Made by a program: the position numbers and the translations under genes. Positions 13,663 through 17,792 of a DNA stretch of 32,461 bases are shown here, piece by piece (position 1 is the first letter of the stretch; each line of letters begins with the position of its first letter). This DNA is from a virus: positions 1 through 32,461 of the IMG/VR virus record IMGVR_UViG_3300024520_000316; one strand, given 5' to 3'. The notes beneath the pieces are model-generated. The model was not told the DNA's origin. It saw only the letters and a list, made by a program, of their open reading frames with translations, and searched no databases.

Positions 13663-13854
13663 ATGGCAAAGAAACAAGCAAAGAAGAAACCAGAAGCAGC
13701 ACCAAAGAAAGCAGCGGTAAAATTAGACCCTAAAAAGTTTTACGACTTTGAAGTAACTAAAGACAGTAAGCACCTAAAGAAAGGGCTTATTACTATCACT
13801 GGTGAAATGTGTACTATCTTTATTAAAAAAGGTTTAGGTAGTGTTAAGGCTTAA
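13663..13854 (+). CDS. Small Lys/Ala-rich protein, 63 aa, after the capsid gene
   Basis: The first 20 residues are a Lys/Ala/Pro-rich basic tail (MAKKQAKKKPEAAPKKAAVK). A compact domain of about 40 residues follows (FYDFEVTKDSKHLKKG, ITITGEM, IFIKKGLGSVKA). The layout resembles small phage structural accessory proteins in which a K-x-G strand pair is followed by a terminal helix ending in GLxxV. The gene at 23587 has the same layout and also follows a terminated shell gene. It overlaps the next gene by 14 bp. A capsid decoration or connector role is possible but unproven. Confidence 0.6.
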   Translation: MAKKQAKKKPEAAPKKAAVKLDPKKFYDFEVTKDSKHLKKGLITITGEMCTIFIKKGLGSVKA

Positions 13855-14638
13855 AGTAAATAACGACTCAAGGACTATAAAAGATGAGTTTGTAGATGTT
13901 ACTCTAAATGAGTTATCAGATGCTTATAAATTCGTGAGTACACTTGATGCTGAAACCAAACGATACTTATTGACCACAACAGAAGCAGAAATAGACCAAG
14001 ACAAGTTCTTTGAATTTAAAATAAAGTGGGTTACTATGTTTAGTGACTTGACTATAAACGAATTACGATTGATACCTCAATACGAGGGTACGGCTATAGA
14101 CATATCTGTAGACTGGCTTTACAATCTTTGTGAGAAGTTCTTACACCAACCAGAGACTTACTTAGAGCTAAAGGAATTTAAGCACAAAGGAGTTAAGTAC
14201 AATTTAATAGAACCTTTAAAAACTATAGGAGGTGCTCAAATGTTATTTGGTAACGGAAACTACAGACAGTTTATGCTTGGAAGTCAGTTAACTAACATGG
14301 TCCACGATCAAAAGAATGAACGAGGTATTGAAAGCTTAAAGCAATTATTTGCTTTGTTGTATTCAGATGGTAACGACTCAAGCGACGATATAGTAAACAG
14401 GTCGGAAAAGTTTGGAACGGTAAACGCGATGTATGGCTGGTCAGCTTACTTTTTTTTTGTTCAGTTGGTAGAGAAGTACAAAGATTATTTCAAGTTATCT
14501 ATGACAAAGAACCCACCTCCAAAAGTAGCGGTACAATTAGCGAAACAACAGCTAAGAGTATTACTATTAAGAACCACTTTTGGGAGATTGTTGCTATCAA
14601 AGTTGCCGAAACGGGAGTTTTCAATACTAAAGACATAA
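13841..14638 (+). CDS. Tail assembly chaperone-like protein, zero-frame product, GTG start
   Basis: A 265-residue zero-frame product from GTG 13841, overlapping the previous gene by 14 bp; no nearer ATG in frame. The first 215 or so residues look coding (DVTLNELSDAYKFV, GGAQMLFGNGNYRQFMLG, YGWSAYFFFVQLVEKYKDYF). The last 40 residues (VLLLRTTFGRLLLSKL and on) look like an out-of-frame read. A -1 frame is open from 14374 to 14712 and ends in an ATGA overlap with the next gene, so the natural long product is probably a -1 frameshift fusion of about 290 residues. The GW and YGW patterns resemble Bacteroidetes phage neck/tail chaperone proteins, but the family call is tentative. Confidence 0.6.
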   Translation: MLRLKVNNDSRTIKDEFVDVTLNELSDAYKFVSTLDAETKRYLLTTTEAEIDQDKFFEFKIKWVTMFSDLTINELRLIPQYEGTAIDISVDWLYNLCEKFLHQPETYLELKEFKHKGVKYNLIEPLKTIGGAQMLFGNGNYRQFMLGSQLTNMVHDQKNERGIESLKQLFALLYSDGNDSSDDIVNRSEKFGTVNAMYGWSAYFFFVQLVEKYKDYFKLSMTKNPPPKVAVQLAKQQLRVLLLRTTFGRLLLSKLPKREFSILKT

Positions 14639-14712
14639 CACCACTTGAGGCAGTAATGAATAAAAGAGCCTTTGACGTATTAAGGGTATTTAATTTAAAA
14701 TTAACAGAATGA
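14374..14712 (+). other. -1 frame extension of the upstream gene (probable frameshift product C-terminus)
   Basis: This frame is open from 14374 (after a TAA at 14371) to TGA 14710-14712. From 14521 it encodes 63 residues with clear protein character (KNHFWEIVAIKVAETGVF, then TPLEAVMNKRAFDVLRVF). Its stop overlaps the ATG of the next gene at 14709 (ATGA), like many other junctions here. Candidate slip sites are the T9 run at 14450-14458, which contains T TTT TTT in the right phase, and the AAAA at 14521-14524 (CCA AAA G). Confidence 0.65.
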
Positions 14713-15182
14713 CATACGAAGCATTAGTAGACATATTTAAGAACGCGGCAAGCGCTTACGTGCCTGTTTCACCAGCTTTACCTTTAAACTTTCATTACGA
14801 TAAAGTGTGGTATAATAACGGTGCTGCTGCTAATAAGTACCCTTCAATGTTGTTTGAATGTTCACCAGATTTTGAGTTAGTGGGGCAACAGTTCAACAAC
14901 AGAACAGGGCAACAGGTCTTTACTGGTAAATTATTCTTTTACGATACGTTTTGGGAAGCAGAAAGAACTGCTAAAGTAGTCTACAAGAAACAAAGCGAAC
15001 TAAACGAATTAGCGTTAAAAGTAATAGGACAAATAAACGGACAAACTCAACTTATACCTACTCAACAAATACAGTGGGGTAAGGGCTTCTTTGGCTTAGA
15101 CGTACACAACCCTAAACTAGTACAGGTTTATATACCATTCACAGCAGTAATAAAAAGCGATTGCACACCCTTAACAGTTTAA
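14709..15182 (+). CDS. Probable neck/tail protein, 157 aa
   Basis: Starts at the ATGA overlap with the -1 frame stop and lies one base before the HK97 gp10-like gene. It is compact, with mixed strands (LNFHYDKVWYNNG, PSMLFECSPDFELVGQ, QVFTGKLFFYDTFW) and a C-terminal sheet-like end (PKLVQVYIPFTAVI). Between capsid and tail genes, this is the position of a head-tail connector or tail terminator in siphophages. I do not recognise a named family. Confidence 0.6.
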   Translation: MTYEALVDIFKNAASAYVPVSPALPLNFHYDKVWYNNGAAANKYPSMLFECSPDFELVGQQFNNRTGQQVFTGKLFFYDTFWEAERTAKVVYKKQSELNELALKVIGQINGQTQLIPTQQIQWGKGFFGLDVHNPKLVQVYIPFTAVIKSDCTPLTV

Positions 15183-15183
15183 G

Positions 15184-15660
15184 ATGGTTCAAGACGGGTT
15201 AGAACTTATAGGCGACTTCATTGTAAAGCAGCTACAAATTGTTTTAGACGAACAAGGACACCGCGCAAGTGGTAACTTAATCGACACTATGCGTAGTGAG
15301 GTTAAAAGCACTAGTAAAGGCTTTGAGATTATTGTTTACGGTGCTGACTATGCTATAGCAGTTGAAAAAGGTGTACCTCCAGGAGTGAGGGTTTCAACTG
15401 ACGCTTTAGCTAAATGGGTAGAAGAAAAAGGAATAGCAACAGGTGAATCAACCATTAAAAGCATTGCATTTTTAATACAGCGTAAGATATTTCAAGAAGG
15501 TACAATCCAATTTAGAGAAAAAAAGAAGGGTTTTGTTGAAGTTGTGATAGATGCAAACGCAAACGCTATCTTTCAAATGGTCTTAGATTTATTTACGAAA
15601 GAAATTACATTATCTTTAAGCAATACGATAAGGAAGAACAAACGAACATTTTCAGAATAA
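15184..15660 (+). CDS. HK97 gp10-like tail component / connector
   Basis: A 158-residue protein with the gp10-like pattern: an N-terminal helix (DFIVKQLQIVLDEQGHRASGNLI), then the strand pair GFEIIVYGADYAIAVEKG with the PPGVRVSTDALAKWV loop, and a helix around AFLIQRKIFQEG. HK97 gp10-like proteins sit at the head-tail joining region. The stop overlaps the next ATG as TAATG at 15660. The length is normal for the family. Confidence 0.75.
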   Translation: MVQDGLELIGDFIVKQLQIVLDEQGHRASGNLIDTMRSEVKSTSKGFEIIVYGADYAIAVEKGVPPGVRVSTDALAKWVEEKGIATGESTIKSIAFLIQRKIFQEGTIQFREKKKGFVEVVIDANANAIFQMVLDLFTKEITLSLSNTIRKNKRTFSE

Positions 15661-17792
15661 TGGCATTAACAACAGCACAAATAGGAAGCGAAATAGCAAC
15701 GGAAAAACTAGTAATTCAAGCAATTACAGACAATCCTGGAGCTGGTAACGTTACTTCTGTACAAATGGAAGTACTTATTAATTCTGGTGTTGTTCAAGCA
15801 ACCTTAGAACATTTACCAATAATAGGAAGTACAACGACTTTCGAGTTTGAGATAAACAGCATTGTAAAAGATTACTTTGCTAGTGACTTCTTAGCTTTAA
15901 CAGGCGTTAACCAAACAGCAACAGAAAACGCTTTAGTATCTGTAAGGTTAAAAGAAATTATAGGCAACGTTGTACAAGGAACAACATATCGAGAAGAAAT
16001 ATTTATTAAGAACATTACTCAAGATGTTTTTGAAATAGAAGACTTTGACTTAACAGATTACGATTGCGGCGACACTGGAAGCACATTAAGTAAGCTAATG
16101 ACTTCAGCACCAAGTCCATTGTTTGTAGGTGATAATACAAGCTTTCACGTTAGTTGTTTAACTACTAGCTACACAGTAGGACTAGTACCTAAGCAAGAAT
16201 GGACAATTGAAACTTATTTAAACGGGGTCTTTGTTGCTCAATTAACTGATAGTGTAGACGTGCCAACAAGGGGTGTCAGTGGTGAAATAATTGGAGGTAA
16301 GTACGATGTTTCAAACTACAGGTTTGACTTTGATAGTTCAGCAGGATATGATGAGGTGAGAATTTACATTAGAGACATTGCAGGACCAAACACACAACGA
16401 AGCGAAACAAAAGTTTTCAAATTAAACGATGCTTGTGAAAAAGAATTAACCTTATCATGGCATAATGAACTAGGACAACAAGACTCTTTTAGCTTCTTAG
16501 GTAACATCAATAGAGTAGGAAAATACACAGATAGCACATTTAAAAGAGTTAGACCAGTAAACCCGTTGAGCACTAACGTAGGTGACTTGGTTTATAAGTC
16601 AAGTTACAACTACGAATACGACCTTTTCAGTGATAGAATGCCTGAATTATACGTTAAATGGTTATCTAAGATGTTAATAAATAAACGTGCAGCTATACAA
16701 AGTAAAGAAACGTCAACAGATTGTTTATTGTCTTTAACTAATGACCAGTATTTTGGGTCTATGCCTCAAGCCGCTTCTTACTTTGGAATCGTTGACGGTG
16801 GCAATGGTTTTGCTTATGGAGCGCCTGGAAGGTCAGGAAACTTTTTAAAGTATGATTTAACTAACGATACAACAAGCACAATAGCTACGGCCTTTCCTGC
16901 TGCTGCTGCTGTTTATTACACATTCGGCATTAGGTCACTTGCTAACGGTAAGATTTACTACATGAATAGTCAACCTACTACAACTGACATTTTAGTATTT
17001 GACCCTACATTAGAAACCTTTGCAACATTTGGAGTATTAACAGAAAGCGTAGGTCAACCATGCCAAACGCCAAGCGGTGTTATTTATGCTCCAATTTCTG
17101 GATCAGGTAAGTTTATTAAAATAGATACTAACACAGATACAATAACAGAAATTGTAGCAGTTGGTGTTTCTGGTGGTGGTGATTGTGTTTATGTTGGTGG
17201 TTTTGTTTACTTCATACCTACTGGCGGTGCTGCTGAATTTTACAAGCTAGACACTTCAAACGATACTTACATAACTATTGCAGCGGCTTCAAACTCTTTG
17301 AGCGTTCAAAGCTCTGTTATTACTTCAACTGGTAAGATTTATTCTTACATGAATGCTTTTAACCAAAACTTTGTATTTGTTGTTGATACTAGTAATGATA
17401 GTTCTTACAGCTTTGACACTGGGGTCGTTACAAACGCCGCTTACAATTCTATTTTCTTAATGTCAGACGACAACCCATACTTACTAGGGTTTGATTTAGG
17501 TGATGTGCTAAAAATAGACATAACAAACGACGCTCTTAGTATAGCTGGTACAATAACACCTGAAAGACATGATTTACCAATTGTTATAGGTGATAACGTT
17601 TACGCTGTTTCTGGACAACAAAACGACACTGTAATAAAGCTTACTTTTGAAGAAAGCTGTACTATTACACCTAGTAAATACTTTCCTATAGTAATTGAAA
17701 CAGAAGAAACAGTTTTAGAGGACAAATTTACACCTGAAACAATTTTTAGAGTTAAGTTTAGAATGGCAAACCGAAGAAAAGGACTTAAATAG
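15660..17792 (+). CDS. Large tail protein with an apparent seven-bladed beta-propeller insertion
   Basis: A 710-residue protein. The first 350 residues are beta-rich tail-like sequence (SVQMEVLINSG, TFEFEINSIVKDYF and so on). Residues of about 365-665 contain seven repeats of 40-50 aa. Each repeat has a short strand ending in a K/V-hD-xxxD type turn (KYDLTND, VFDPTLE, KIDTNTD, KLDTSND, VVDTSND, KIDITND, KLTFEE) preceded by a G-K/F-h-Y strand (NGKIYYM, GGFVYFIP, TGKIYSY, GDNVYAV). This is the signature of a beta-propeller. The last 40 residues (YFPIVIETEET...FRVKFRMANRR) resume tail-like sequence. The propeller probably projects from the tail and binds a host surface ligand (inference). It starts at a TAATG overlap. 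Confidence 0.7.
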   Translation: MALTTAQIGSEIATEKLVIQAITDNPGAGNVTSVQMEVLINSGVVQATLEHLPIIGSTTTFEFEINSIVKDYFASDFLALTGVNQTATENALVSVRLKEIIGNVVQGTTYREEIFIKNITQDVFEIEDFDLTDYDCGDTGSTLSKLMTSAPSPLFVGDNTSFHVSCLTTSYTVGLVPKQEWTIETYLNGVFVAQLTDSVDVPTRGVSGEIIGGKYDVSNYRFDFDSSAGYDEVRIYIRDIAGPNTQRSETKVFKLNDACEKELTLSWHNELGQQDSFSFLGNINRVGKYTDSTFKRVRPVNPLSTNVGDLVYKSSYNYEYDLFSDRMPELYVKWLSKMLINKRAAIQSKETSTDCLLSLTNDQYFGSMPQAASYFGIVDGGNGFAYGAPGRSGNFLKYDLTNDTTSTIATAFPAAAAVYYTFGIRSLANGKIYYMNSQPTTTDILVFDPTLETFATFGVLTESVGQPCQTPSGVIYAPISGSGKFIKIDTNTDTITEIVAVGVSGGGDCVYVGGFVYFIPTGGAAEFYKLDTSNDTYITIAAASNSLSVQSSVITSTGKIYSYMNAFNQNFVFVVDTSNDSSYSFDTGVVTNAAYNSIFLMSDDNPYLLGFDLGDVLKIDITNDALSIAGTITPERHDLPIVIGDNVYAVSGQQNDTVIKLTFEESCTITPSKYFPIVIETEETVLEDKFTPETIFRVKFRMANRRKGLK

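Follow-up and report, generated by a model that had tools for sequence, protein, structure and literature searches.

A conserved run of nine T residues between two selected reading frames suggests programmed slippage in a morphogenesis gene of uncultured flavobacterial phages

The DNA analysed in this work (the window) comprises positions 1-32,461 of the IMG/VR record IMGVR_UViG_3300024520_000316. The order of its genes, determined together with PHROG and Pfam profile matches, shows that it carries a tailed-phage morphogenesis module with the following components:

8982, terminase large subunit gene
10166, portal gene
11375, head protease gene
12308, major capsid protein gene
13663-13854, + strand, small gene of 63 aa, whose 3' end overlaps the GTG at 13841 and which has a counterpart in most of the compared loci
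13841, + strand, GTG start of the gene studied here (the frameshift gene)
14709-15182, + strand, downstream gene of 157 aa, syntenic
15184, tail completion/Neck1-like gene
15660 and 17793, large genes preceding the tape measure gene
20190, tape measure gene (PHROG 20660)

The frameshift gene thus lies between the capsid and the neck-like genes and not before the tape measure gene, as had been stated in the initial annotation. When its frames were read again, the positions given there for the run of nine T residues (T9), for the motif CCAAAAG (14519-14525) and for the open -1 frame were found to be correct. The features of the gene are:

13841-14638, + strand, zero-frame ORF of 265 aa with a GTG start (ATG in most relatives) and a stop codon at 14636-14638
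14374-14712, + strand, the open -1 frame over its whole length
14450-14458, + strand, T9 run, the candidate slippage site, which consists of three zero-frame TTT (Phe) codons, 14450 being the first base of a codon
14452-14458, heptamer T_TTT_TTT within the T9 run, in phase for a -1 slip
14458-14712, + strand, -1 extension of 84 codons starting with TGT at 14458, plus the stop codon TGA at 14710-14712; the predicted slipped product has 290 aa
14459-14638, + strand, putative dual-coding overlap of 59 zero-frame codons (177 nt) plus the zero-frame stop, also read in the -1 frame
14709-14712, + strand, ATGA, in which the -1 stop overlaps the ATG of the next gene at 14709

Fourteen distinct homologous sequences were compared: the window, 12 further sequences from IMG/VR and one contig of a Flavobacteriaceae metagenome-assembled genome (MAG). 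Nearly all of them are metagenome assemblies. Protein identity in this set ranges from 36 to 81%, with L031 and L034 as the most distant members (about 36-43%). No relative of the frameshift gene was detected among 50,697 INPHARED phage records. Among 397 genomes from the family of the MAG and 395 from its phylum, the known MAG contig alone was recovered, besides one chance match in an unrelated cellular gene. The phages carrying the T9 gene are a family of uncultured flavobacterial phages.

The order of the genes around the frameshift gene is kept among the compared loci; the product of the gene at 14709 had no match in INPHARED. Two loci carry additional ORFs in this neighbourhood. In L003 (2077-4303) four of them (135, 204, 182 and 212 aa) separate the 63-aa gene from the frameshift gene. 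The N-terminal motif I[TI]DGxGTG is common to two of these, and together the four resemble an inserted cassette for virion or decoration proteins, immediately 5' of the frameshift gene. In L034 (1951-2700) a 250-aa ORF is located at this insertion point, behind the capsid gene, with its C-terminal end overlapping the region that matches the 63-aa protein; judged by eye, the ORF looks like a putative glycosyltransferase. Some observations were made elsewhere in the window. The ORF at 6715-8232 matches ParB-like nuclease as well as DNA methyltransferase families and probably encodes a fused ParB-methyltransferase. The 710-aa protein of the structural region (15660-17792) has a sub-threshold match to the DUF6923 repeat and resembles WD40/YVTN-like proteins of Vibrio phages. 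A run of nine A residues (1126-1134) is located near the end of a 109-aa ORF (855-1184), whose stop shares an ATGA with the start of the following ORF (1181); the frames were read here, and no obvious extension was seen.

The exact sequence TTTTTTTTT was found at the position of window 14450-14458, starting on a codon boundary, in all 14 homologues, and this check upheld the T9 run as a candidate slip site. Past the run both the zero and the -1 frame are open in every sequence, whereas the +1 frame invariably meets a stop codon 16-19 nt from the first T of the run. Programmed -1 recoding, as proposed in the initial annotation, agrees with this pattern. The run is intact in L031 despite altered flanks (TTG T9 ATT, with flanking bases G...A, vs TAC T9 GTN elsewhere), and a gapped, run-length-tolerant pattern scan of IMG/VR found T9 only and no other run length. 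All 42 Phe codons at the slip site are TTT, as compared with 111 TTT and 52 TTC among the upstream Phe codons of the same genes.

The two ends of the gene are conserved as well. The same zero frame is present in all relatives, and in 13 of the 14 sequences it ends at an identical distance from the run, exactly 180 nt from T9 to the stop codon (207 nt in L031). The ATGA overlap between the -1 stop and the next gene is also kept in 13 sequences, with L031 having TAA and a gap in its place. Both ends thus look real: the -1 stop, which had been taken for the true end, gains support from the conserved overlap, but it does not appear to be the sole one. The -1 frame had been credited with about 63 residues of normal protein, whereas about 84 conserved residues follow T9. 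The zero-frame tail, described in the same annotation as low-complexity and out-of-frame-looking, is conserved in all relatives and, as shown below, bears the marks of selection.

Selection on the two frames was assessed from the substitutions between homologues. Among codon pairs specifying the same amino acid, the zero-frame synonymous difference is 0.49-0.51 upstream of the run and drops to 0.185 downstream of it. The corresponding values for the -1 frame are 0.18 just past T9, 0.28 over the remainder of the overlap and 0.42 beyond the zero-frame stop. Substitutions upstream of T9 are found on third positions of zero-frame codons, and those beyond the zero-frame stop on third positions of -1 codons; between T9 and the zero-frame stop all positions are slow initially, and the -1 pattern dominates later. 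In simulations in which the amino acids of one frame were fixed and synonymous codons were drawn according to the codon usage of the phage, the probability of finding the zero frame open given the -1 amino acids was 0.0003-0.008 per tested sequence, and that of finding the -1 frame open given the zero-frame amino acids was 0.0002-0.006, figures that are descriptive, the homologues being related by descent and the per-sequence probabilities therefore not independent. An unselected frame would be expected to carry about 2.4 stops; none was observed. The zero-frame identities (0.735/0.556) exceed those expected in the simulation under selection on the -1 frame only (0.498/0.422), and the -1-frame identities (0.785/0.648) exceed those expected under selection on the zero frame only (0.558/0.462). 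The dual-frame pattern recurs at about 40% identity. These sequence comparisons indicate that the 177-nt overlap codes for two proteins and that both tails are kept by selection. In L003 (5192-5302) the -1 tail contains a 12-residue insertion, LRDWITGKKQEA, directly after the position of the zero-frame stop, in the single-frame part.

Taking into account that the T9 run is conserved and that both frames of the overlap appear to be under selection, the gene probably yields two proteins, and we consider programmed slippage at T9, giving two selected products, very likely. Unshifted expression would produce the 265-aa zero-frame protein. A fraction of expression shifted to the -1 frame at T9 would produce the 290-aa protein, which would share residues 1-206 with it but carry a C-terminus of its own, of 84 residues, in place of zero-frame residues 207-265, and its translation would end at the start codon of the gene that follows. 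We infer that both proteins are made; each tail has a segment of its own as a source of peptides, VQLVEKYKDYFK being unique to the zero-frame tail and NHFWEIVAIK to the -1 tail.

The shift could take place at the level of transcription or of translation. If RNA polymerase inserted one U at T9, the resulting mRNA with ten U residues, read by standard translation, would continue in the genomic -1 frame, whereas deletion of one T would lead to the +1 frame, which is closed in all relatives. Efficient slippage of bacterial RNA polymerase on nine A or T residues has been described (PMC5009743), the threshold for transcriptional slippage being put at a homopolymer of at least 8-9 A or T (PMC3711429, PMC5009743). 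A run of this kind, T9, is located at the frame junction in all 14 homologues. The E. coli polymerase requires at least seven T residues and slips on T in preference to A, and in one gene its insertions outnumbered its deletions about threefold (PMC6260861); this reported bias is in the direction required at T9.

The alternative, -1 slippage of the ribosome by tandem Phe-tRNA on U_UUU_UUU (14452-14458), with or without the aid of a weak hairpin, would use the same site. The heptamer is in exact phase. Frameshifting in G/GT genes is widespread in long-tailed phages (PMC5009743), and the documented recoding of tail chaperone genes is ribosomal, as exemplified by SPP1 17.5/17.5* with its putative -1 site UUUUUUC (PMC6316719). 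In E. coli, however, U_UUU_UUU shifts only weakly, much less than A_AAA_AAG does (PMC5009743), and all nine T's are invariant and not merely the seven of the heptamer. The latter argument has to be read with the conserved Phe-Phe-Phe, which makes the models with seven and with nine T's nearly equivalent; the ninth T is also constrained by the conserved -1-frame Cys codon (TGT). A candidate stimulatory structure was found downstream of the run:

14468-14502, + strand, weak hairpin formed by GUAGA/UCUAU and an inner stem of 6 bp, starting 9 nt 3' of T9

In the closer relatives this hairpin is present at a plausible spacing, with z-scores from -0.05 to -2.2. In L031 and L034, the two most distant relatives, the values are +0.7 and +0.8 and the hairpin is lost while T9 persists. 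Its covariation does not exceed that of shuffled controls, and it was rejected as a conserved stimulator. No other stimulatory structure conserved across the relatives was found downstream by a search that was non-exhaustive for pseudoknots, and an Rfam search of the region gave a chance match only. Ribosomal and transcriptional slippage are not separable on the basis of sequence. On the evidence listed, insertion of one U by RNA polymerase seems slightly favoured, with ribosomal slippage a serious candidate whose chances we put a little below even.

A further possibility is phase variation at the DNA level, in which the length of T9 would change during phage replication and some genomes would carry T8 or T10. 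Homopolymer tracts are known sites of such variation (PMC3711429). Every assembly has T9, however, the scan that tolerated other run lengths returned none, and the tight conservation of both tails suggests co-expression and not switching, so that this explanation is very unlikely.

The initial annotation had placed the frame switch near 14507-14525, possibly at CCAAAAG, which would make the zero-frame tail noise. In favour of a late switch, the zero-frame residues just past T9 resemble ordinary helix-forming protein. The motif CCAAAAG is not conserved, however; L002 has CCGAAG, L003 CCCCGAG and L005 CCAATAATG at this place, and it was discarded as a slip site. Constraint on both frames, seen as zero-frame synonymous constraint and as constraint on the -1 frame, is present from the first codons after T9. 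Directly from the slip, the -1 frame is 38-51% identical to that of the distant L031. The -1 motif EIQRLFPLI, located a few residues past the slip, is kept at about 40% identity, in L031 and, as QIQRLFPVI, in L034. The zero-frame tail is conserved up to its fixed stop. Since the -1 ORF opens only 25-76 nt 5' of T9 across the homologues, -1 constraint starts right after the run, the motif is common to L031 and L034, and the region 14507-14525 has no conserved slip motif, T9 appears to be the switch site, and the chance of a switch in the later region is slight indeed.

The -1 ORF might also be a separate overlapping gene with a start of its own, as the frame is independently open over 336 nt. 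The sole ATG, GTG or TTG codon of this ORF in the window is an ATG located 206 nt from the first T of the run, behind the greater part of the conserved region, which makes separate initiation unlikely. The relatives have no common start near T9, and the ORF reaches just the short distance given above upstream of the run. We regard this explanation as highly improbable. An indel introduced by sequencing or assembly into a single continuous gene, suggested by the fact that homopolymers are classic error sites, is already refuted by the relatives, in which an identical T9 and both open frames occur in 14 distinct sequences on separate contigs, with both tails apparently under selection, and can be given virtually no chance.

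Returning to programmed slippage at T9, translational coupling of the -1 product to the gene at 14709 through the ATGA overlap is possible. Zero-frame translation ends 70 nt upstream of the -1 end at ATGA. Since the -1 product would end on the start codon of the gene at 14709 and zero-frame ribosomes 70 nt earlier, slippage may tune the expression of that gene. As a tentative picture, and one that we hold to be possible, not probable, RNA polymerase slippage on T9, and not ribosomal slippage, would determine in what ratio a tailed-phage lineage makes two assembly proteins; both C-termini would be needed, and the -1 product would couple translation to the next gene, so that the rate of slippage would tune downstream expression.

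Programmed slippage at T9 would add a well-conserved frameshift in a phage lineage whose gene has no sequence match among the 50,697 INPHARED records, and standard annotation would for this reason overlook the product of 290 aa. Dual coding over so long an overlap, with two apparently selected C-termini, would be unusual for a dsDNA phage. A clean and cheap test would moreover be possible with the T9 run, namely of whether transcriptional slippage does in tailed phages the job that ribosomal frameshifting does in lambda.

The product of the frameshift gene had no sequence match in PHROG, Pfam or PDB, so that the term "chaperone-like" used in the initial annotation is unproven. AlphaFold models of the two frame products, folded separately, were poor (pLDDT 52 and 47). 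Foldseek returned uncharacterised viral proteins only, the best two with E < 0.001 but low TM-scores, and was uninformative against PDB. Bacteroides phage BKR1 gp23, Parabacteroides phage PM21P1 gp29 and Croceibacter phage P2559Y_0014 were chosen for their similar or pre-tape-measure positions; no homology to these proteins, or to ORFs of Flavobacterium phage snusmum9-1 and Leeuwenhoekiella phage Arctus_1, was detected by hhalign, hmmsearch or BLAST.

Position and recoding logic suggest, less firmly than the slippage itself, that the pair may work like the gpG/gpGT assembly chaperones of phage lambda. As with lambda G/GT and SPP1 gp17.5/gp17.5*, the gene belongs to a tailed-phage morphogenesis operon, and -1 recoding would yield proteins with a common N-terminus and different C-termini (PMC5009743, PMC6316719). 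A short and a long product of this kind are predicted here by sequence only. A U-run at the slip site is shared with SPP1, whose site is putative (PMC6316719). In contrast to the lambda and SPP1 genes, to which no sequence relation was found, the T9 gene is located between the capsid and the neck-like genes and not immediately upstream of the tape measure gene, the small genes at 14709 and 15184 and the two large genes at 15660 and 17793 intervening. Because it is not adjacent to the tape measure gene and has no sequence match, it was not filed in the G/GT family. Set against lambda and SPP1, whose overlap lengths were outside the comparison, it is also distinguished by the 59-codon dual-coding overlap, by the apparently selected zero-frame tail and by having no conserved stimulator.

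In its homopolymer of about nine A or T residues the gene resembles the Shigella mxiE and spa genes and Thermus dnaX, in which transcriptional slippage changes the frame through bases inserted into the mRNA and RNA structure is not needed at such runs (PMC5009743, PMC3711429). Unlike the T9 phage gene, these are bacterial genes. In the literature collection searched, no paper was found that deals with transcriptional slippage in the tail chaperone gene of a phage, which is no proof of absence. The potyvirus P3N-PIPO differs from the T9 gene in belonging to an RNA virus with a viral RNA polymerase, in its GA6 site and in the unrelated proteins; P3N-PIPO is similar in that an overlapping frame is reached by slippage of the polymerase, which inserts one base (PMC4552492, PMC5009743).
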